DNA from: a virus
Direction: 5' to 3' (one strand)
DNA: 21,742 bases
Virus record (IMG/VR): IMGVR_UViG_3300031963_001035
Coordinates: 1 to 21,742 of that record
A program made the position numbers and the translations under genes. The notes beneath the pieces are model-generated. The model had not been told where the DNA came from, made no database searches, and was given only the letters and a program-made list of their open reading frames with translations. Shown here one piece after another: positions 3,749-19,340 of this stretch (position 1 is the stretch's first letter; each line of letters starts with the position of its first letter).

Positions 3749-4152
3749 GGCCACCCCGCACCCATGTCGATAGCCTCCAGCGCGGCCCGCGTCGTGACCG
3801 ACCGGCACTCATCCTTAAGCCGCCACCAGTTGGCCTGAGCCTGCATCGCCCACGCCCTCAATTCCTGCATCAGAACGAAGGTCTCGGCGTAGGTCGGGCG
3901 GATGAAGGCGTTGGACGTGCAGCGGATGCCCGGCGCGTCGATTGTCAGGTCACCCACGCCCGCCGCGATAGCCTCGGCGCAGATGTCCTTGAGCGTTAGC
4001 CAGTTTGTCCGGTCCAGCTCGTTGCGGATTTGCAACGTCTCGCCGGGGTAGTCATCGAGCGGAAAGCCCGGAGCGAGGAACGCCGCGTAGGCCGCGTCCG
4101 CCGCCAGGATGCGCCGGTCACGCTGCGGACTGTTGGGCGACAGGTTAGCCAT
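3745..4152 (-). CDS. Hypothetical helical phage protein
   Basis: This 135-residue protein starts at ATG 4152, inside the end of the repeat-protein gene (8-base overlap), and ends in the GTGA overlap with the next gene. The sequence shows NELDRTNWLTLKDICAEAI near residues 44-62, IRCTSN near 75-80, and LRAWAMQAQANWWRLKDE near 98-115. This resembles a phage pattern of the R.E.DR.NW...A....PIR..SN...LR.W....W.LKD type, possibly related to DUF4376-like tail-fibre-associated proteins. I cannot confirm that by eye. It lies after a run of beta-rich structural genes and could help assemble or anchor them; this is inference from position. Confidence 0.65.
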   Translation of the reverse strand: MANLSPNSPQRDRRILAADAAYAAFLAPGFPLDDYPGETLQIRNELDRTNWLTLKDICAEAIAAGVGDLTIDAPGIRCTSNAFIRPTYAETFVLMQELRAWAMQAQANWWRLKDECRSVTTRAALEAIDMGAGWP

Positions 4153-4684
4153 TGATGACCGGCCCCGACGCTATGGGTTCCGCCGTGATCGAAGGCGAGG
4201 AAGGCAAGCCACCCGCACTCGCCGTTCCGCCACCCGTTATGGGTTGCGCCGTAATCGTTCCGCCGCTTGCCGGATCACCCGAAGCCGTGGGCGGGGTCGG
4301 TATCGGATAGGCCGGGATGCGACCCGGCCCGAACAGAAGCGTCGGCCCGCCGCTGACGACATACGAACCGCCATCGGACGTGATCTGATAGCTGCGGCTG
4401 AAGCTGACCGTCGCCCCGGCGACCGCGTAGCTTCCGCCACCCGCAACCAGCGTGTAGCCGCGATTAAGCCCCGCATCCGCGCCGGTGACCGTATAAGCCC
4501 CGCCAGATGCCTCCAGACGGCGCGTCAGTCTCAGCGCCGCATTGTCCCCGGTCAGGACGTAAGCGCCGCCACCGGCCTCCAGAAGCCGCGCAATCCGTAG
4601 TCCGGCGTCCGCCCCGGTGACCGTATAGGCCCCCGACGCCGCGCTTAGGGTAAGTCCCCCGCTAAGTGCGAGGAGAAGGCTCAA
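4145..4684 (-). CDS. 22-residue tandem repeat structural/adhesin-like protein, TTG start
   Basis: The product (179 aa) is built of repeats. Five copies of a unit with core GaYtVTGADAgL place a Tyr at residues 20, 42, 64, 86 and 108, exactly 22 apart. A Gly/Pro/Thr-rich tail follows, with PI doublets at 127, 148 and 170 (TAQPI, TAEPI), again about 22 apart. Such short beta repeats suggest an elongated fibrous or surface-exposed structure. The frame is the same as that of the 503-residue gene upstream, separated only by TAA and one CCG codon; the first usable start is TTG 4684, with GGGAG six bases before it. Either the ribosome reinitiates at TTG or it occasionally reads through the TAA. Function is unknown; a head-spike or fibre part is plausible from the neighbours. 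Confidence 0.65.
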   Translation of the reverse strand: MSLLLALSGGLTLSAASGAYTVTGADAGLRIARLLEAGGGAYVLTGDNAALRLTRRLEASGGAYTVTGADAGLNRGYTLVAGGGSYAVAGATVSFSRSYQITSDGGSYVVSGGPTLLFGPGRIPAYPIPTPPTASGDPASGGTITAQPITGGGTASAGGLPSSPSITAEPIASGPVING

Positions 4685-4687
4685 CGG

Positions 4688-6199
4688 TTACTCCCAACCG
4701 TAGACGGGTTGCCAGATGAAGTTGATGGTCTGCGAGGCCGTGGCGGTGCCGACCAGGAACTTACCGACCAGAGCGATGAACTCGCCCGGATTGACGTAGA
4801 TCGGCGCATCCCCAAGGTCGAGGTAGATCGGTCCCTCCGATGCGGGCGCACCGATAGCCGCGCCGATTGCCCAGGATTGGAAGCCCATGGCCACCCGGCG
4901 CGGAGCCTTGGTCGTGCCGGTGGCGAAAGACGCGCTTTCCGATGTCGCCATCGAAACCGCCGTATGACCGAACGCGAGCGAGAACTGCACGACGGTCGCC
5001 GTGGTCGCCACAGCAGCGCCGTTGTTGACGCATTGCAGTCGGACGCCGCGAACCACCAGCCTGCGGCCCTGAACGGTCGTGGAGCCCGCCGGAACCTGAT
5101 AGCTGCCCCAAATGCCGTCCGTCGCAGCCGCAGCCGCAGCGGTGACGCTACCCTGCCCTCCGAGGCCGCCCGGAAGGTTGGCCGTGAGCGCCGTGTTGCT
5201 TGGCGCGGCGGCGGTCGGGTTCGTGCTGTTGGCGTAGGTGGCGAGCGAGCCCATCGTGCCGCCGGAGAGGCCCTGATAGGAGCCGAACATGCGGTTGCCC
5301 GACGTGCTGAGCACGTTGGCGTACTGCGGCCCGCGCACGGTCACGCGGTAGTCCTTGACCAGCGCCTGGGTCGCCGCGCCCGCCGCACCGCCGACGATGG
5401 CGTGACGAATGGACCACGGAAGCGAGCGAGACAGGCAAGGGCTGTCGGCGCCGACCGGCGTAGGGATTTCACCGACCTTGAGGTTGTCGATCCAGAAGGT
5501 CGTGACCACGTTCGTGGTCTGGATGAGGAAGCGGTAAACCCGGTTGTTGGCGTAGGCGAACGTGCCGGTCCCCAGCGCGAGCGGAAACACGCTCGTCGTG
5601 GTCTCCACACCCGCGTTGTTGACGACGCCCAGCAGGCCCGTTGATGTCATACGGAAGTAGACGCCGTCCAGCGGCGCAAAGGCCGTTGAAGCGCCACGCT
5701 GGAACACGCCGAAGTCGATGACCGTGTTGGCGTTCGGCTGTGCCGAGAAGGAAAGCGCCGTCTCGACAACGAGCGTGTTGGTCCCGCCAATCGGGAATTG
5801 CGCGAACGTGCCGAACGTCATGCCGGTCGTCGTGGTGGTGATGTTGCCGCTGTTGGTCAGCAGGCCCGACGCGCTTGAGGTCGCGGTGAGCGTCGTGAAG
5901 GCGTGCGAGAACTTGCCGGTGTTCTGCGCCGTGTCGGTGAAGGCTTCCTGATCCAGCAGGAGGTCGAGGCCGACCCGCAAACGGTAGTCGTCATCGGTCT
6001 CAGGCGCATGGACGTGGCGGACGCCGGTCAGCTCGCCGGAATCGTTCTCCGACTGCATCGTGTGGCCCGCGTTGGGGCCGCCGCCGAACTGCTGGCCATT
6101 GGCTGCGTGGCCAGGAGTGATGACGAACGCGTTCTTGTTCGCATCGACCTCCTGCTTTGTGCCGGAGACGCCCCCTGCGAGGTTGGTGTCAAGAGCCAT
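4688..6199 (-). CDS. Large beta-rich virion structural protein (candidate spike/fibre)
   Basis: The ATG at 6199 follows AAGGA (TAAGGACACATCATG), giving 503 residues. The N-terminal 80 residues contain ALDTNLAGG, QEVDANKNAF, a SENDSGELTGVR strand and RLRVGLDLLLDQEAF, a pattern I associate with conserved phage structural proteins. Residues of about 95-300 alternate beta strands with Thr/Ser/Gly turns and look like a LamG- or concanavalin-like sandwich (VIDFGVFQRG, VYRFLIQTTNVVTTFWIDNLKVGEI). The C-terminal 200 residues are Ala/Gly/Thr-rich and end in INFIWQPVYGWE. No enzyme motif is visible. Its neighbours are small conserved structural proteins and a spike-base homologue, so an exposed spike or fibre role is likely but not proven. 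Its TAA stop is followed in frame by the repeat protein. Confidence 0.7.
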   Translation of the reverse strand: MALDTNLAGGVSGTKQEVDANKNAFVITPGHAANGQQFGGGPNAGHTMQSENDSGELTGVRHVHAPETDDDYRLRVGLDLLLDQEAFTDTAQNTGKFSHAFTTLTATSSASGLLTNSGNITTTTTGMTFGTFAQFPIGGTNTLVVETALSFSAQPNANTVIDFGVFQRGASTAFAPLDGVYFRMTSTGLLGVVNNAGVETTTSVFPLALGTGTFAYANNRVYRFLIQTTNVVTTFWIDNLKVGEIPTPVGADSPCLSRSLPWSIRHAIVGGAAGAATQALVKDYRVTVRGPQYANVLSTSGNRMFGSYQGLSGGTMGSLATYANSTNPTAAAPSNTALTANLPGGLGGQGSVTAAAAAATDGIWGSYQVPAGSTTVQGRRLVVRGVRLQCVNNGAAVATTATVVQFSLAFGHTAVSMATSESASFATGTTKAPRRVAMGFQSWAIGAAIGAPASEGPIYLDLGDAPIYVNPGEFIALVGKFLVGTATASQTINFIWQPVYGWE

Positions 6200-6208
6200 G
6201 ATGTGTCC

Positions 6209-6490
6209 TTAGTCTGCCCAGACGTAGCGAACCGCCCACGTCCCCTGCATCTTGTGAATTGACCGCGCGTAGATCGTCCCGCCGACACCCGCGTTGGGCG
6301 CCGCCGTGAGCGAGAAGAACTGCCCGGCGTAGCGATGGTCAGCCGCCGTGTGGTCCGACGTCGTGTCGTTCGCCATGATGAAGGCTTCGACCTTGGCCCC
6401 CGCGCCAATCGTGGCGTCCGAGAACGCGACCGACGCTTCGTTGCTTCCGGGGAACGCCCCGAAGTCGAGCGTAGCCGTCCCGGTCGGCAT
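6209..6490 (-). CDS. Small conserved beta-rich phage structural protein
   Basis: This 93-residue protein starts at ATG 6490, which shares a base with the preceding TGA (TGATG). It shows TATLDFGAFPGSNEASVAF at the N-terminus, KVEAFIMA and HRYAGQFFSLTA in the middle and IYARSIHKMQGTWAVRYVW at the C-terminus. I recognise this as a recurring small phage structural-type protein that occurs beside capsid or tail genes, but no precise function is known to me. The predicted fold is an all-beta sandwich. Close packing between the 139- and 503-residue genes suggests that it works with them in the same virion substructure. Confidence 0.65.
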   Translation of the reverse strand: MPTGTATLDFGAFPGSNEASVAFSDATIGAGAKVEAFIMANDTTSDHTAADHRYAGQFFSLTAAPNAGVGGTIYARSIHKMQGTWAVRYVWAD

Positions 6491-6909
6491 CAGGTCACCG
6501 TGAGGATGTTAGATCCGAAGTCCACGGTCAGCGTCTCGCCCGAGGCCAGGGTCACGCTTGAGCCGTAGTCCCAGAACGCAATCAGCGGGTCGGCCGGGCT
6601 GGTCGGGGTGTCGTTGTACAGCACCGCATAGCGGAACGGGCCGACCGACCCACCCGAGGCCGTGAACACCACGTCATTGCCCACTAGCGAATAGACGCCG
6701 CTCGACTGCGCAGATGACGTCACGGTCACCGTGGCGCCGCCCGCCGTGTAGCCATTGCCGGCGCTGATCTCGGTCAGGTTCGCCCGAACCGTGTTGGTCA
6801 CCAGCGGAGCCGAATTGGTTAGCATCACCTTGAGCGTGTTGGACCCAAGGTTGTGGACGCCTTCCGCCAGGTTCTCGGTAAAGACGTCGAACTTGGTAAA
6901 CGTCGCCAT
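6490..6909 (-). CDS. Conserved beta-rich phage structural protein
   Basis: The 139-residue product begins MATFTKFDVFTENLAEGVHNLG and continues LKVMLTNSAP, ISAGNGYTAGG, GPFRYAVLYNDT, PLIAFWDYGSSVTL and GETLTVDF. These blocks form a pattern I have seen repeatedly in tailed-phage structural modules, usually as a hypothetical protein; I do not know a proven role. It is all-beta with no signal peptide or membrane segment. Its ATG lies one base after the TAG of the spike-base gene, and its TGA overlaps the next start, so translation is probably coupled. Membership of the same virion substructure as the spike base is inference. Confidence 0.7.
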   Translation of the reverse strand: MATFTKFDVFTENLAEGVHNLGSNTLKVMLTNSAPLVTNTVRANLTEISAGNGYTAGGATVTVTSSAQSSGVYSLVGNDVVFTASGGSVGPFRYAVLYNDTPTSPADPLIAFWDYGSSVTLASGETLTVDFGSNILTVT

Positions 6910-6910
6910 G

Positions 6911-7171
6911 CTAGTAGACCGCGACCATGGACGTGGCCGTCTGGTTCGTGGTGTTCGTGCTGTTCACGCGCTTGAACCGAACCGGAAGCATGGTCCCCGC
7001 CGGAACGCCCTCGAACGTCCGCGTCGTGCCGTTGGGCGCGACCACGGCGATGTTGCCCGCAACACCCACCCAGAGCGAACGCGGCCAATCGCCGTTGACC
7101 TTTGCCACGTCAGCGGTATCGGAGGCGGTAACCGCCCCAAAGGATTCACCAGGGCGCGTCATTTCGGACAT
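6911..7171 (-). CDS. Spike base protein, RCAP_Rcc01079-like
   Basis: The 86-residue protein has the layout of the short spike-base family named after Rcc01079 of the Rhodobacter capsulatus gene transfer agent: VTASDTADV (residues 14-22), RSLWVGVAGNI (31-41), GVPAGTMLPV (55-64) and KRVN (67-70). In that agent the protein anchors head spikes at the capsid surface, and the spikes help bind host capsule. The start ATG 7171 directly follows the TAA of the gp4-like gene; a second ATG three codons on is an alternative. The assignment rests on remembered motif layout, so moderate confidence is appropriate. It heads a run of beta-rich structural genes that could form the rest of a spike. Confidence 0.6.
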   Translation of the reverse strand: MSEMTRPGESFGAVTASDTADVAKVNGDWPRSLWVGVAGNIAVVAPNGTTRTFEGVPAGTMLPVRFKRVNSTNTTNQTATSMVAVY

Positions 7172-9248: not shown

Positions 9249-10529
9249 TTAGGCCGTGCCGGAGAGGCGGACGCCTCGGCGGCGATCCACGTTCTTCACG
9301 CCGTAGACCACGTCGAAGCGGTGCAGGTGCGTGTCGTTGGTGGAGTCAGACGAACGCCAGTAGCGAACCGTCAGGCCGGTGTCGGGGTCGGTGGCGTAAT
9401 CCGCCTCGCCCGAGTAAGGCATGATCAGCTTCGCGGAGACCAGCGCGATGGCCTCGGGACGGAACACCGTGCCAAACTTGTAGGTCGTGGCGTCGGTGTT
9501 GGCCTCGTTGTCGTCACCCATCCACTGGATCGCGGCGTTGTCAGCCGGAGCCGCGCTCACCGTCTGGAACGCTCCAGAGGTGATGATCGGCGGGGTGATG
9601 GTCAGCGCCAGGTTCTGGTTGTCGCCCGTGCCGGTCGCCACCGAAGTGCCGCCGGTGATGACCGTGAACTGCTGCAGGAAGTCCTGCGTGGCCTTGGTCA
9701 TCGGGTTGACGGCGAACACCCCGTCAATGGTGAACACCTCGCCGGCGGCCACGGTCTGAGCGTTGCCGACGTTGTCGATGTTCAGCGTCTGCTGCCAATC
9801 GCCGTCCTTCACCGAAGCATAGGTGACGTTTTGGCTGGCGCCATCGACCAGGGCGTTGCCCGAGCGCGTGCCGGTCGTGACCGTCGAAGCGTTCTGGGTG
9901 GCGTACCAGTCGATGTTGCCGAGGATCGGCAGCTTGGCGCGGGTGAGCGCGTCGGAGGCGATCTTCTCGGTCTGGAGGCCGGACAGATTGCCGAGCATGG
10001 CCCAGGCATCCGAGGGATGCAGGAAGCCGACGCGGCCATCGGTCTCGACGCCCTGCTCATCAAGCCGCTGCGGAGCCTTGGACAGGTCCGAGAAGCTGTT
10101 GATGAGCTGACCCGGCGTTCCGACCCAGGAGTAGAACTGGCGGGTCACCGCGTGAATGTCGGTGTCCACCTGGTTCGCCAACTGAGCCGCAGCCGAGGTC
10201 ATGACCTTCGACTTCAGCAGGCTGTCAACGGTCAGGGTCTCTTCCATCGAGGTGAACTCGACGTCGATACCCTTCTGCTTGTCGATGGTCAGGGCGATTT
10301 CGCCTTCGACCACGTCTTGCACCTGGGCGACCGCGCCGTCACGCACCGTGAACTGCGGCGGGCGCTTGACGTAGACCGTGGTGCCGTTCTTCTGACCAGT
10401 GTTGCTGATCGGCTTGACGACAATGTCCTTGAACTCGCTCGTCACCACCTTGGCGGCCACGAGGTTGTTCTTCATGAGCTTGAGGAAGGTGTTAGCGTAC
10501 ACCTTCGGAGACAGGAGTGCGTTAGGCAT
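9249..10529 (-). CDS. Major capsid protein, P22 coat (gp5) family
   Basis: The 426-residue protein is close to P22 coat (430 aa). It starts MPNALLSPKVYANTFLKLMK. Residues of about 45-60 (QKNGTTVYVKRPPQF) correspond to the P-loop/E-loop area of the P22_CoatProtein family, and EGEIALTIDKQKGIDVEF is also characteristic. A beta-rich stretch at about 225-345 (VTYASVKDGDWQQTLNI through LALTITPPIITSG) fits the inserted I-domain that helps this family fold. The C-terminal VRYWRSSDSTNDTHLHRFDVVYGVKNVDRRRGVRLSG completes the HK97-like core. The ATG is preceded by GAGGACGG. It follows the scaffold gene by 32 bases and precedes a strong terminator, as expected for the most abundant virion protein. Confidence 0.93.
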   Translation of the reverse strand: MPNALLSPKVYANTFLKLMKNNLVAAKVVTSEFKDIVVKPISNTGQKNGTTVYVKRPPQFTVRDGAVAQVQDVVEGEIALTIDKQKGIDVEFTSMEETLTVDSLLKSKVMTSAAAQLANQVDTDIHAVTRQFYSWVGTPGQLINSFSDLSKAPQRLDEQGVETDGRVGFLHPSDAWAMLGNLSGLQTEKIASDALTRAKLPILGNIDWYATQNASTVTTGTRSGNALVDGASQNVTYASVKDGDWQQTLNIDNVGNAQTVAAGEVFTIDGVFAVNPMTKATQDFLQQFTVITGGTSVATGTGDNQNLALTITPPIITSGAFQTVSAAPADNAAIQWMGDDNEANTDATTYKFGTVFRPEAIALVSAKLIMPYSGEADYATDPDTGLTVRYWRSSDSTNDTHLHRFDVVYGVKNVDRRRGVRLSGTA

Positions 10530-13631: not shown

Positions 13632-14933
13632 CTACCTCCCCATCCATGCGTTGCCGCCCGCGTGAACGGGCTTGCGTGCCGCTTCCCGCTTCACGCGGGG
13701 TTCGTCGTAGGCCACCGCCAGAAGCCCGAAGGCATCCGCGCCGTGTGACGCCCAATCGTGCTCAGGCCCGAGGCCAATCTCGCGCTTGTCGTCGCGGCGT
13801 TCGTGGTACGCGCCCAACACCTCAAGGCCGTCCGCCGTCGTCGCTTCGTTGAACCACATGCGGGGAAACAACCGCCGCCCCGCATCAATCCGAAGCATGG
13901 CCGCCGATGGTCCCTGGTTGCGGATCACCTCGACGTCGAAGCCCGCTTCCCGCGCCTGGTCCTCGTAGCTCTTGCCGTTGTGGTTCTCAGGGCCGACCCG
14001 CGAACCGTCGTGCGGGAGATAGACCATGCAGCCGCGATAGCCGCGCTGGCGTAGCTCCTCGAAGTAGTAGCTAGGCGGTTGGCCCGAGCCCTCGATGTAG
14101 TCCAGCAGGGTGATCTTCTGGCCCACCCATTGCGCCACCCAGATCGCCGTATGGTCGCGCCGGCCAAGGTCCCAGAAGGTTCGTATCGCCATGTTCGGAT
14201 CGCGGGCCACGAAGCCGATGCGGTTTTCCTTCCGCGCCTCGGTCAGGCTTGCCGCGTAGTAAGCGCCTTCGGTCACCTTGGCGTAACCACCCTCCCAAAT
14301 GTGGTCGTATTGGTCTGGTCGTGCGGCTTGATCGTCCAACCGCTCGCGCTCCAGTTCGACCGGAAACCACGGATTGTCTGACCAGTTGGCCCTGACCACT
14401 TGGGCGCCGGTCGGCAGATGTTCGCCCCTCAGAAGCGTATCAACCGGGTCGGTCTTGCGGTTCGGGTTCCACGAGAACCAAAGCTCCGAAGCCTTGGCGC
14501 GGATCGTCGGCCGGAGAAGCGTCAGGCTGCGAGCGCTCAGGCTTTGGGCTTCCTCGACCCAGGCCCGCTGGAAACCCTCCAGCGACTTGATGCTTTCCGC
14601 CGTGTGATCCTGCATCCCGACGAACGTGATAAGCCCACCGCCGGGCGTTTCGATCCGGTCATTCAGAACCCGGAAGCCGTCCGCCTCGCCCAAGCCGTAG
14701 TCCGATAGCTTCTGTTCGATCAGGCGCTTCGAGCTTTGCGCCAGAGACTTCTGCACCTCACGAACACACACGCTGAGAGCGCCGCGTTGCGCCAGGTGCT
14801 CCTCGACCATGAGGCCCGCGAAGAAGTGCGACTTCCCCGATCCGCGACCACCCCAAGCGCCCTTGTAGCGAGCGGGCTGGAGTAGCGGGACGAAGATGCG
14901 CGCCGTGGGGATATCAAGACTTCGGGTCGACAA
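13632..14933 (-). CDS. terL: Terminase large subunit
   Basis: This 433-residue packaging motor has an ATPase domain with Walker A GGRGSGKS (28-35), Walker B AWVEEA (124-129) and a WNPNRKTDPVD motif (155-165) typical of PBSX-like terminases. The RNase H-like nuclease has D255 (FWDLGRRDHTA), D309 (LPHDG) and D400 (SHGADAF). It pumps DNA through the portal and cuts the concatemer. The start is the TTG at 14933, overlapping terS by 20 bases: the frame is closed by TGA at 14945-14943, and no ATG or GTG occurs before Walker A, so TTG is the only standard start that keeps the ATPase intact. The weak start is probably driven by coupling to terS. Confidence 0.93.
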   Translation of the reverse strand: MSTRSLDIPTARIFVPLLQPARYKGAWGGRGSGKSHFFAGLMVEEHLAQRGALSVCVREVQKSLAQSSKRLIEQKLSDYGLGEADGFRVLNDRIETPGGGLITFVGMQDHTAESIKSLEGFQRAWVEEAQSLSARSLTLLRPTIRAKASELWFSWNPNRKTDPVDTLLRGEHLPTGAQVVRANWSDNPWFPVELERERLDDQAARPDQYDHIWEGGYAKVTEGAYYAASLTEARKENRIGFVARDPNMAIRTFWDLGRRDHTAIWVAQWVGQKITLLDYIEGSGQPPSYYFEELRQRGYRGCMVYLPHDGSRVGPENHNGKSYEDQAREAGFDVEVIRNQGPSAAMLRIDAGRRLFPRMWFNEATTADGLEVLGAYHERRDDKREIGLGPEHDWASHGADAFGLLAVAYDEPRVKREAARKPVHAGGNAWMGR

Positions 14934-15297
14934 CGGTTCGCGTCAGCTTCTCGATTGCGAGGGCGCCAGAATGTTCGGTCTCAGTCTTGTCCTTCCACGC
15001 GTCGGGCTGGCGGTTCTTGAGGCCGAAGATAATTCCGGTCGCGTTGCCCTCGTTGCGTTCGGCCAGGGCCTTGAGCCGATCCTCCCAAACGCGAGCGCCT
15101 TTAGCCCGTCCGATCTTTATGGATGCGGAAAAATCTGGATGAACCTTCTTCCACTCGGTCACGGTGTCGATGCAGACGCCAAGCTCACCAGCGAGAACCG
15201 CTTCGCTGTAGCCTTCCGACAAGACCTGTTCGGCGGTCTCGCAAAAGGCTGGATCGTATTTGCTTGGACGACCTCGCGTCGGGGCTTGGTCAGTCAT
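14914..15297 (-). CDS. terS: Terminase small subunit
   Basis: The 127-residue protein carries TRGRPSKYDP (7-16) and a helix-turn-helix at about 31-50 (SEAVLAGELGVCIDTVTEWKK), then HPDFSASIKIGRAKGARVWEDRL and GIIFGLKNRQPDAWKDK (88-104). This arrangement is characteristic of phage small terminase subunits, which recognise the packaging site and hand DNA to TerL. ATG 15297 follows the TAG of the upstream gene by eight bases with a weak TAGGGT site. It overlaps terL by 20 bases, further supporting the assignment. Confidence 0.88.
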   Translation of the reverse strand: MTDQAPTRGRPSKYDPAFCETAEQVLSEGYSEAVLAGELGVCIDTVTEWKKVHPDFSASIKIGRAKGARVWEDRLKALAERNEGNATGIIFGLKNRQPDAWKDKTETEHSGALAIEKLTRTVVDPKS

Positions 15298-15305
15298 GTG
15301 AGACC

Positions 15306-15476
15306 CTAGTTAACCGTCGCCCCTTGGCGCTCGCGTGCGGAAGCTATCTCAGCCAGAGCGCGCATGTTGGCGGCGTAGACTTCCGATGCAATGCGGGCGT
15401 GTTCGATGCAGAACGCCTCAGCGTCGTCTAGCTCGGCTTCGGTGAGTGTGCTTATGGGCTTGCCGGCGTAGGTCAT
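15306..15476 (-). CDS. Small hypothetical protein upstream of terS
   Basis: I chose ATG 15476 because AGGGGG lies about six bases before it; an in-frame start ten codons further up lacks such a site. The 56-residue product is MTYAGKPISTLTEAEL, then a single helical stretch (DDAEAFCIEHARIASEV and beyond). No family is recognised. As first gene of the packaging operon, behind a possible promoter and followed closely by terS, it is likely expressed with the late genes. Its short acidic/helical nature would suit a small regulator or accessory protein, but nothing in the sequence shows that. Confidence 0.6.
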   Translation of the reverse strand: MTYAGKPISTLTEAELDDAEAFCIEHARIASEVYAANMRALAEIASARERQGATVN

Positions 15477-16378: not shown

Positions 16379-16924
16379 TCAAAATGGAATCTCGTCGCCG
16401 TCCTTCACCCAGGCGCGGCTGAACGAACCTTGAAACTTGGAACCGGGAAACACGCGCTTTGCCTCCACCAGCGTCGGGGGCAGGGCGTCAATGATATTCC
16501 CGATCTCGCGGGCCGTATAGACCGAAACGAACCGACCGGACGCCTCAACGTCCGCGACCTCGGCGTCAGTTCGGACCAGCGCGGCGACGGTCCCGTTCTG
16601 CAACGGTATCTCCCACACCCACGGCTTGACGGGTCTGTGGCCGGCGTCGGTGGCGGCCTGCGATAGAGCGGCCCACGCCCGCTTCATGGCGCCCGCCTGC
16701 TTCTCGACCTCGTCCAGCATGGCGCGCGTCAACGTGTCCGCCGCCCACGCGGCCTGATAGGCTTCCGACCACTTGGCCTTCTGTCGATAGAGCTTAGCGC
16801 GCAAATCATCAGAAACCAGCATGGGGAGGCGTTCAAACCCCCATTCCGTCTCCGCTTCGGATCGGGCGTTTTCGACGCCTTCGAAAATGGCCTGAAGGGT
16901 TCCGGCGTCGGATGGTGATGGCAT
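16379..16924 (-). CDS. Hypothetical protein with SSB-like C-terminal tip
   Basis: The 181-residue protein has a helical N-terminal two-thirds (ERLPMLVSDDLRAKLYRQK; EAYQAAWAADTLTRAMLDEVEKQ), a beta-like section (KPWVWEIPLQNGTVAALVRTD; GRFVSVYTAREIGNIID) and the ending KDGDEIPF. That ending resembles the acidic, Phe-terminated tip of bacterial SSB (DDDIPF), which recruits replication and repair proteins. I see no clear OB-fold, so a true SSB is uncertain; it could be a replication partner that mimics or competes with the SSB tip. GGAG lies ten bases before ATG 16924. It is the first gene after the palindromic non-coding region that follows the primase-helicase. Confidence 0.7.
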   Translation of the reverse strand: MPSPSDAGTLQAIFEGVENARSEAETEWGFERLPMLVSDDLRAKLYRQKAKWSEAYQAAWAADTLTRAMLDEVEKQAGAMKRAWAALSQAATDAGHRPVKPWVWEIPLQNGTVAALVRTDAEVADVEASGRFVSVYTAREIGNIIDALPPTLVEAKRVFPGSKFQGSFSRAWVKDGDEIPF

Positions 16925-16950
16925 GGTTATGGTTCTCCGCTGACTTAGGT

Positions 16951-16978
16951 GGCGATGCCGCGTAGCGGCGGCAGCGCC
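16951..16978 (-). other. Hairpin upstream of the 181-aa gene
   Basis: On the minus strand GGCG-C-TGCCGC pairs with GCGGCA-T-CGCC around a CGCTAC loop: ten pairs with one mismatch. No U-run follows, so it is not a standard intrinsic terminator. It could influence RNA stability or translation of the gene starting 27 bases downstream. Confidence 0.45.
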
Positions 16979-16993
16979 ACAAAACCCTTAAAA

Positions 16994-17155
16994 CGCGCGC
17001 GCGCGTACGCGCGACCCCTAAGCGTTTGTCTTTGTTCGTTAATTTGTGGGCGTACGCCCACATTGTGGCGGTGTGGCGTACGCCCACATTTTTCGTAAGC
17101 ATTTCAAAGACATGACGTGTGGCGGTAAAATCACCGCCCACATCACCGCCCACAT
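16994..17155. repeat. Palindrome/iteron-like cluster, candidate origin or operator region
   Basis: The 252-base gap after the primase-helicase is AT-richer than its surroundings and full of short repeats. GCGTACGC occurs three times (17003, 17050, 17076), each at the centre of a palindrome; the one at 17045-17062 is a perfect 18-bp palindrome (TGTGGGCGTACGCCCACA) and the one at 17000-17013 is 14 bp. The 9-mer CGCCCACAT occurs four times in one orientation (17055, 17081, 17135, 17147), the last two inside a perfect 12-bp tandem repeat (17132-17155). GGCGGT/ACCGCC (17121-17138) forms a small hairpin. Placement beside a replicative primase-helicase suits an iteron-type origin; binding sites for a dimeric repressor are the alternative. 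Confidence 0.6.
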
Positions 17156-17176
17156 GAGTTAGCGTCTTGTTCACGG

Positions 17177-19297
17177 TCATTCGCCGGACCTTGAGGTGCG
17201 ATAACCGCGCTTGTCGCGGCCTTTGGCGAGGCTGATAACCGCGTCATCCGTGATCAATTCGCGCAGGGCCTGGCGCGATACGGAGGGGCTGAAACCGGCC
17301 TTCATCATGTCCGCCGGCAGGGCCTTGAAGATATAGCGGGGGTGTTCCTTGCGGCCTGCGTAGGGACGCCCTGACGCCCACGCCTTGTCCACCAGCGCGC
17401 ACGCTTCCTCGCGTGCGGCGAACAGCACGCTATCCCCATCCTCGGCGTCATCGCAGGGGTGCAGCACGCCCTGGTCAAAGAACAACCGGATGGCTGTTTC
17501 GTCGCCAGACTTGGCGTAGTTCGCCTTGCCGCGCGTCAGCATCCGGTCGTCGGTTGAGCCCTCTTCAGGGCGCGTCAGATAGATGCGCGAACGCACGGCG
17601 TTGTTCCATGCCGTCGAGCCGCTGTAGCCGCTCCCTGACGCCTTCCCGGCCACAGAGGGGTGACCTAGCAGGAGGATGGTCAGGGAATGTCCCTTGGCCG
17701 CCTGGCGCTTGATAAGGCCGCCCAGCAGTGTCTTCACGAAATAGTTCACCTGGGGCCGGTCGATCTCCGATCCGGCGTAGAAGTCGGCCAGCGTGTCGAG
17801 GATCAGGAGCGACGGTTGGACGGCCTCGATCTGTTGTTCAATCCGCTCCCAGAACGCGCCGACGATAGGCTTTGAATCCTTATCCCAACGGATCAGGGCG
17901 TTGTCGTCACCGACCCTAGGCCACAGCCAGACGTCGTTGAATGGGTTGCCGATGGTGTGACCCATCGCCGCCTTGATGGCGTTGTGGCGCCGGTGAAGCT
18001 CGTCCTTTTCATCCTCACACAAGATAGCGAGGACCGACCCTTGCTTGACCGGGATACCTAGCCACGGAACGCCGGTGGCGACGGAACACGCAAGCTGCTG
18101 CGCCAGGAGCGTCTTGCCTAGGCCACCGTCGCCGTAGAGCGAATTGACCGCCCCGGCGACGATCCAGTCATCCACCACCCAGACGCGCTCAGGCGGTTCG
18201 CCTGTCAGGTCGGAGGCGCGAAACGGACCTTCCGGCGGTGGGTAACTATCCTCCGGTTCGTCCAAAGGGCCGTCGTCATGCGTCCTCTCGGCCCAGGTCG
18301 TGACGGCTTCGTCAAGCGTCGCCATGCCGGGGATTTGGCCGGCGTGAAAGGCGCGCACGGCTTCCTGACACTTCGCCAGCAGGAACGTCGGACCGCGCCC
18401 TGGTCGGTTCTGGTCAACGCGCCGGAAGTAGGTCGGCCCGACTTCCTTGTAGAGTTCTTCCGCCGTGGGCGCCGATCCCGTCTCCCCGACGTACTGGCGC
18501 AGCGTGGCGCGCACGAGGCGGAAGGCGTAGCCCTCGCGCCCGTCCATGACCTTCTCCTCAAGGCCGAGCGCGCCAGCTGGGGCGACGGTGATTTCAGGCG
18601 GCGCGTCTGCCTTTGATTGCGCCACGGTGACGGGCGGGAAGGCGCGTTCGATCTGTTCAATCGCAAACTCGCGCGGCGCGCGTTCAATCCGCACCAGCTC
18701 GGTGCGCTCCAGCACGCGGCCCGGCTTGTTCTGTTTCGGCCAGGCGATTGATCCGGCAAGGCGCATCAACTGCTTTGCGGTGCAGACGACGCGATCCGTC
18801 CCTAACGCCGTGGCGATGCCGCGCGTCGCAGCGCGCAAGGTGTCGGCGTCGTCTATGGGGGTTTCGAGCGGCCACCACATCTGCGCGCGGCGTTCCGGCG
18901 TTCGCCCCGTAACCACCACGATAGCGGGGTCACAGCCTGCGTAGGCGGCCCTTGCGCTCTGTAGCTGGGCTTCGGTGTCAGCGTCGGCCCAAAGGGCGTA
19001 GGCGCGCAAAAAATCGGTATCGTCAGCGGTGGTGTCGGGAAACACGTCGTCTTTGCGGAGCGCCGCGCCGACGTAGACATTCCAACCGTGTTGAGCGTTC
19101 AGGCCGGATGCGTAGTCCGCCGCCGCCTCGAGGTCGTCAGTGGCGAAGAAGCGCGTGCGCGTCCGGCCCTTGGTTTCCTTATCGACGTGGATGCCCGTTA
19201 TCTCGACCTTGCCGGTGATGGCGCGACCAAACAGAAGCCCCAGGTGGGCCGTCATGTCGGATTTATCGGGGCTTAGGATCGGTGACACGTTGACCAC
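17177..19297 (-). CDS. Primase / RecA-fold (RepA-like) helicase fusion, replication protein
   Basis: This 706-residue protein joins two replication enzymes. The N-terminal part looks like a RepB/prim-pol-type primase: the metal-binding LWADADT (D105, D107), GRTPERRAQMWWPLE (131-145), and MRLAGSIAWPKQNKPGR (178-194), which is typical of such primases. The C-terminal part is an AAA_25/RepA-like hexameric helicase: Walker A GDGGLGKT (389-396), a catalytic-type CEDE (427-430), Walker B LLILDT (497-502) and GHPS plus STAWNNAVRSR (about 545-571) for motif 3 and the finger. The last 70 residues (SRQALRELITDDAVISLAKG) look like a winged helix. The GTG start at 19297 has AAGGG eight bases upstream; an ATG at codon 15 is the alternative. 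It probably unwinds and primes the phage origin. Confidence 0.9.
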   Translation of the reverse strand: MVNVSPILSPDKSDMTAHLGLLFGRAITGKVEITGIHVDKETKGRTRTRFFATDDLEAAADYASGLNAQHGWNVYVGAALRKDDVFPDTTADDTDFLRAYALWADADTEAQLQSARAAYAGCDPAIVVVTGRTPERRAQMWWPLETPIDDADTLRAATRGIATALGTDRVVCTAKQLMRLAGSIAWPKQNKPGRVLERTELVRIERAPREFAIEQIERAFPPVTVAQSKADAPPEITVAPAGALGLEEKVMDGREGYAFRLVRATLRQYVGETGSAPTAEELYKEVGPTYFRRVDQNRPGRGPTFLLAKCQEAVRAFHAGQIPGMATLDEAVTTWAERTHDDGPLDEPEDSYPPPEGPFRASDLTGEPPERVWVVDDWIVAGAVNSLYGDGGLGKTLLAQQLACSVATGVPWLGIPVKQGSVLAILCEDEKDELHRRHNAIKAAMGHTIGNPFNDVWLWPRVGDDNALIRWDKDSKPIVGAFWERIEQQIEAVQPSLLILDTLADFYAGSEIDRPQVNYFVKTLLGGLIKRQAAKGHSLTILLLGHPSVAGKASGSGYSGSTAWNNAVRSRIYLTRPEEGSTDDRMLTRGKANYAKSGDETAIRLFFDQGVLHPCDDAEDGDSVLFAAREEACALVDKAWASGRPYAGRKEHPRYIFKALPADMMKAGFSPSVSRQALRELITDDAVISLAKGRDKRGYRTSRSGE

Positions 19298-19308
19298 GTT
19301 TGACCCTT

Positions 19309-19340
19309 GAAAAAGTGGCGGGACGCTTTCACGCCCCGCC
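19309..19340 (-). terminator. Intrinsic terminator/attenuator before the primase-helicase
   Basis: On the minus strand GGCGGGGCG pairs with CGTCCCGCC (nine pairs, one G-U) around TGAAAG, followed by ACTTTTTC. It lies 24 bases past the stop of the ssDNA-binding gene and 11 bases before the next GTG. An upstream CCCCG (minus 19354-19350 region) could pair with the CGGGG of the stem, so an attenuator is possible. Confidence 0.8.

Follow-up and report, generated by a model that had tools for sequence, protein, structure and literature searches.

The origins of PICIs and SaPIs lie 3′ of the initiator gene, where two sets of iterons flank an AT-rich melting site, and the primase and initiator of these elements are sometimes fused (PMC6092414). 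The C-terminal domain of the SaPI Rep reads the iterons, and in SCCmec Cch2 the C-terminal domain of the helicase binds direct repeats that lie downstream of its gene (PMC7581432). The P4 alpha protein is a fused primase-helicase with a C-terminal winged-helix domain that binds origin repeats, and for pRN1 (orf904) and phage BIP-1 an essential origin region directly follows the gene for the primase-helicase (PMC4234260). Replication initiators of phages have also been reported to undergo domain shuffling (PMC10684548). Our search of the open-access literature found no report tying initiator domain shuffling to the origin word. The origins of most phages that are represented only in metagenomes are unknown; here, an origin can probably be read from the array of repeats that directly follows the stop codon of a primase-helicase gene.

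The window analysed in this study spans an entire IMG/VR virus record (21,742 b, 65 % GC), a fragment with reading frames that run off both ends. Pfam and PHROG identified P22-type portal and Terminase_3 genes approximately 2 kb from the array, and the possession of its own terminase and portal marks the record as a phage and not a PICI. The putative origin region as a whole (16925–17176) is the record's strongest repeat window and lies between the primase-helicase stop codon and a gene for a 181-aa protein, which has its first base at 16924 and has the array upstream of it. The array is directly 3′ of the gene for the putative cognate initiator, a 706-aa primase-helicase (17177–19297, minus strand). 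By position and by comparison with relatives, the N-terminal half of this protein is primase-like, and its PHROG match was to DNA polymerase/primase (4.6e-37). Residues 359–548 form an AAA_25/RepA-type RecA-fold helicase (Pfam AAA_25, 1.6e-34; PDB match to RSF1010 RepA, 2.3e-5). The C-terminal ~85 residues, encoded at about 17180–17434, are a putative DNA-binding domain, for which a winged-helix fold is likewise putative, as the AlphaFold model was of low confidence (pLDDT 53 for the whole protein and 45 for this domain) and Pfam searches of the C-terminal domains gave sub-threshold matches only (FeoC winged helix, E 0.01, for the related locus L010). An NCBIfam search gave nothing useful, and a primase-alignment scan of genome contigs found no relatives.

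With PICI and SaPI origins, this locus shares a putative origin immediately 3′ of the initiator and two iteron sets around an AT-rich region. Unlike those elements, it belongs to a tailed phage with a RecA-fold AAA_25/RSF1010-RepA helicase and not a SaPI-type Rep. SaPI Rep belongs to another helicase class, and, with a helicase of the kind found in RSF1010 RepA, the present element does not descend from PICI origins as far as the helicase is concerned. A layout like that of PICI origins seems to exist outside PICIs in combination with a non-homologous helicase, an indication of convergence. SCCmec Cch2 resembles the locus in having repeats 3′ of the helicase gene and a C-terminal domain as reader, a role that is predicted here, but it has a separate primase-polymerase and SCCmec is a mobile island, not a phage. 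P4 alpha is also a fused primase-helicase in which, as we propose here, the C-terminal domain reads origin repeats, although its primase and helicase are of different classes. The ori and crr of P4 are distinct sites, whereas here a single array adjoins the gene. A RepA-type helicase and an iteron origin are shared with RSF1010 oriV; RSF1010, however, relies on three proteins (RepA, RepB′ and RepC), of which RepC is the iteron reader, and a single fused protein seems to perform all of these tasks here. An origin region directly following the primase-helicase gene is common to pRN1 orf904 and BIP-1, but theirs is a long stem-loop without iterons and their helicase is of the SF3 type.

Based upon the evidence below, we consider it very probable that the array is a replication origin of the iteron type, that the adjacent primase-helicase reads it through its C-terminal domain, and that the two are exchanged as a cassette; origin function, melting and binding in this phage are what we infer from sequence. 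Comparison of ~90 related loci suggests that such phages keep changing the address word together with the C-terminal end of the adjacent primase-helicase.

The original prediction had described three copies of an 8-bp palindrome, one of them within a perfect 18-bp palindrome, together with four same-orientation 9-mers and a 12-bp tandem pair, in gene-free DNA at 16994–17155. Each of these motifs was recovered, with GCGTACGC confined within the window to 17003, 17050 and 17076, CGCCCACAT at 17055, 17081, 17135 and 17147, TGTGGGCGTACGCCCACA at 17045–17062 and ATCACCGCCCAC at 17130–17153. Only 0.22 copies of CGCCCACAT are expected, and none of 100 shuffles reached four. For GCGTACGC, with 0.85 copies expected and three attained in 4 of 100 shuffles, the number of copies is not exceptional by itself, and the clustering is the informative part. 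As a repeated site GCGTACGC was not upheld, as two copies are merely junctions of inverted half-sites and the third lies in CGCGCGTACGCGCG. The true repeat unit is the half-site TGTGGGCG/CGCCCACA, with five copies, one of them inverted, within 16975–17154, alongside four variants of the form TGTGGCG, one base shorter than TGTGGGCG. This amounts to nine half-sites in 180 b directly 3′ of the primase-helicase gene, the clustering of short repeats by the initiator that characterizes iteron origins. Scored for strand-symmetric 7-mer repeats, the 300 b that follow the stop codon reached 96, whereas dinucleotide shuffles gave 11.5±4.8 and no other part of the window exceeded 50, in agreement with the predicted excess of motif density.

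Within the array, iteron cluster 1 (17135–17154, minus strand) consists of two tandem copies of TGTGGGCG (17135–17142 and 17147–17154) inside the 12-bp tandem repeat, and is faced by a variant TGTGGCG half-site on the plus strand (17118–17124). Iteron cluster 2 (17045–17088) comprises the palindrome TGTGGGCGTACGCCCACA, TGTGGCG at 17064–17070 and 17072–17078, and CGCCCACA at 17081–17088. The predicted interval was slightly too narrow, as one TGTGGCG-type half-site (CGCCACA, 16975–16981) lies outside it; this half-site is lost in the related loci L004–L007 (TTTTGCGGCG) and is therefore probably dispensable or due to chance. The palindrome CGCGCGTACGCGCG (17000–17013) is independent of the iteron word. 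Its core recurs as GCGCGTACGCGC at the equivalent relative position in L008 and L009, where the array is built from another word, and a near copy, GCGCGTATGCGC, is found in L023 and L025, where the words differ too. The AT-rich stretches noted originally are more pronounced than was stated, since the record's only AT islands sit in the array: the only 24-b windows with GC ≤30 % start at 17024–17025 and 17085–17090. One island, the putative melting site (17085–17114), lies between the iteron clusters and holds the lowest-GC 24-mer of the region, and a second AT-rich stretch (17017–17046) is distal to cluster 2. The array thus has beside its iterons an AT-rich candidate unwinding region, as iteron origins do.

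That this DNA is gene-free holds with the caveat of an unsupported 115-aa ORF (16833–17180, minus strand) that spans the array region. The pattern could in principle be a coding or RNA feature, either this ORF, whose start codon overlaps the stop of the primase gene in the sequence ATGA, or terminator hairpins, to which the palindromes of the region might belong. We regard this as extremely unlikely, as the ORF had no family match in Pfam or PHROG and was unconserved in L008 and L010, where the frames are unrelated, Rfam gave no match, and terminator-like sites were not above shuffles (1 found vs 0.8 expected).

Exchange of the array together with the initiator was seen in contig G004 (locus L021), which encodes a version of the 181-aa protein (P0002) with 93 % identity to that of the window. 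Upstream of its 181-aa gene, G004 has an unrelated Prim-Pol/DUF3987 protein and an array of TCTTTCCC words. In blastn, the match between the window and G004 breaks off at 16924 and picks up again at 19310, a short way upstream of the primase-helicase; the flanking parts are 83 and 90 % identical. The breakpoints enclose exactly the gene and the array, which indicates that both were exchanged together while their neighbours stayed. Window positions 10365–10461 align across both ends of the 35.4-kb G004, which is thus probably a complete, circularly permuted genome. Other variable modules were also observed, as positions 4140–6911 and 13762–15307 of the window had no blastn match in G004, to which it is otherwise 80–91 % identical.

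This exchange bears upon the choice, offered by the original prediction, between an iteron origin and a multi-site operator. Were the array an operator only, it would be bound by the primase-helicase or another regulator for downstream genes, and the origin would lie elsewhere. Its position upstream of the 181-aa gene would suit such a role, as would multi-site palindromes, which are possible in operators, and a weak sigma-70-like match (9/12) at 17103–17131; however, this match is on the plus strand and points away from the 181-aa gene, and promoters and terminators were not above chance in any telling way. The array instead follows the initiator and was not found to be tied to a regulated downstream gene, as P0002 stays 93 % identical while array and initiator change. 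Furthermore, the AT islands, and the DnaA boxes concentrated at the arrays of a sister family (below), are origin features. We therefore consider an operator alone unlikely and favour the iteron origin, although the two roles could coexist. Of the binders originally put forward, the primase-helicase is favoured, as it is swapped with the array and, in the sister family, the word covaries with the C-terminus of the primase-helicase, and the 181-aa protein is not, as its gene stays.

Among the relatives of the window, near-identical phages (L002–L007 and L011) keep the array, whereas those with an N-terminal half at 44–60 % identity have an array at the equivalent place made of different words. 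For initiators that are 55–57 % identical, the word is GGGTGCG in L008 (palindrome GGGTGCGCGCACCC) and GCGTGTCG in L023 and L025; the words of L010, L024 and L026 are TTGCGGAA, TGGAAGTC and GGGAAGTC, respectively. The repeat score of the 3′ region was far above shuffles in each of these contigs (z 9.6 to 40), with some other windows scoring equally high in L025 and L026, several of which are low-complexity or tandem repeats. Chimeric initiators were observed in L010 (4001–6151) and L024 (4007–6253), which combine a window-like N-half (54–60 %) with different helicase/C-terminal halves. L010 has a C-terminal domain and a GCGGA word in common with Rhizobium N65 and EBPR siphovirus 5, whereas its N-terminal half is 60 % identical to that of the window, which has a different word, and unrelated to those of N65 and EBPR siphovirus 5. 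Across BLAST clusters, words grouped by C-terminal and not by N-terminal relatedness, with greater similarity within than between clusters (permutation p 0.0004); these word classes and clusters were derived after inspecting the first arrays, and the 75-locus test and specificity scan described below came later.

The external comparison covered 22 phage records that encode a related ATPase core. The highest repeat score of the locus fell on the array directly behind the initiator gene in eight (Rhizobium N65, EBPR siphovirus 5, Alteromonas PB15, Salicola CGphi29, Idiomarinaceae 1N2-2, Roseobacter CRP-831, MW202867 and WOVitB). No 3′ array was found in about 14 of the 22, which have the related ATPase core only, for example Gordonia Trine, Mycobacterium Minerva, Caulobacter GB2A and BFK20, and the rule is therefore not universal for RepA-type helicases. 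The arrangement was found in phages of unrelated gene order. This recurrence, along with the covariation of the word with the primase-helicase C-terminus, argues against a packaging (pac/cos) or partition site, a reading that the proximity of the portal and terminase genes might invite and to which we attach a very low probability.

A prediction that the array would lie straight after the stop codon was made for PB15/Idiomarina-type initiators, a sister family unrelated to the initiator of the window, before the data were inspected. The sample was the best 80 of at least 496 IMG/VR loci, so that closer relatives are over-represented, and 75 were usable. In 63 of these 75 (84 %), the window straight after the stop codon was the strongest repeat window of the locus, with a median repeat score of 49 vs 7. 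DnaA boxes were 41-fold denser at the sister arrays (90 in 37 kb) than elsewhere (30 in 512 kb) and were present in 38 of the 75 loci. The circular genome MW202867 contains just two perfect DnaA boxes, both of them in its array. The array of the window has no DnaA box; such boxes are common at iteron origins but not obligatory. GC skew gave no support for or against an origin at the array, with the minimum of the window at 18559 and the extremes of MW202867 not at its array.

The sister family was also used to ask which residues track the word, by comparing array-word similarity with identity in 30-residue windows over 1,431 pairs of 54 non-redundant loci, with the rest of the protein controlled. 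The partial correlation was ≤0.02 across residues 1–560 and climbed to 0.50 at 591–631, within the C-terminal ~70 residues, and a partial Mantel test gave 0.435 (p 0.0005). In the alignment, the best columns (606–622) fall in a helix-like segment of ~15 residues, a putative recognition helix, followed by a wing-like HGW segment. One residue of this helix was Q with GGTAAC arrays (GTAAC) and V with [GC]GGAAC arrays (GGAAC) in 18 of 18 loci, some of which are closely related to each other and do not count independently. Different words were found in pairs with bodies that are 95–97 % identical and C-terminal domains that are ~42 % identical. By parsimony, at least 15 word changes were required on the body tree vs 5 on the C-terminal tree, for a minimum of 4.

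As the 3′ end of the gene adjoins the array, word and C-terminal coding sequence lie within about 300 bp, and their association might reflect physical linkage only, with no recognition. Flanking DNA beyond the array (300–900 b after the stop codon) nevertheless had a partial correlation of 0.024, with the C-terminal term still at 0.446, and linkage alone is thus insufficient as an explanation. Moreover, the signal peaks in the ~15-residue helix with no smooth decay, and L077 and L091, with C-termini that are 96 % identical, differ in both the V/Q residue and the word. We consider linkage without recognition quite improbable, and the near-zero value for the flank speaks against an operator as well. 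For the family of the window, whose sequence set is too small for such mapping, C-terminal recognition of the word is what we infer by analogy and from the swaps.

Under the favoured reading of an iteron origin, the primase-helicase would use its C-terminal domain to bind the TGTGG(G)CG half-sites, assemble on both iteron clusters and open the AT-rich island between them, where the RepA-type helicase ring would be loaded and the N-terminal primase would prime synthesis. Gene and array would form a self-contained cassette of initiator and cognate address that is exchanged between phages, with the address word changing jointly with the C-terminal reading domain. Such a cassette would explain how near-identical phages become mutually blind replicons, and the V/Q residue offers a testable candidate code for protein–DNA recognition, in which V would read GGAAC and Q would read GTAAC. 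A broader proposal, to which we give even chances, is that phages with fused primase/RepA-type helicases have a common origin system, always 3′ of the gene, with the word read by a swappable or point-mutable C-terminal helix, so that initiators that are 95–97 % identical become different replicons, perhaps pressed by satellites or origin-bearing decoys parasitizing a fixed word.

Further elements were seen in and around the arrays. The window has a weak match (13/20) to a common AT element, TAAGTCATTGAAATCATTGA, at 17095–17114 on the minus strand (shuffle p 0.025; other windows p 0.029), and the combined p for an element near TAAGTCATTGAAATCATTGA was 8.7e-5 over 13 arrays. TAAGTCATTGAAATCATTGA-like elements occur in the L010, N65, L021, L026 and PB15 arrays despite unrelated words and even unrelated initiators, and are perhaps a melting element or host-factor site. 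L063 (MW202475) has, from 5002 onward, an initiator with a PB15-type C-terminal domain and no array after its gene; its origin may have moved. In L043 (G009), alternating GAGCGAGCCA/GACAGCACCA tandem units with variable spacers at about 551–1400 are unrelated to the origin array. Finally, a GC-rich dyad with a TA-containing AT centre (e.g. CCCCTATATAGGGG and ACACACCTATATAGGTGTGT), by a definition chosen post hoc after the data were seen, was found in 7 of 15 arrays vs 1 of 564 other windows. In N65, L024, PB15, Idiomarina, Salicola, MW202867 and CRP-831 it lies in the array or at its 3′ end, at roughly +86 to +207 relative to the stop codon, and is possibly a primase start hairpin or a protein site.
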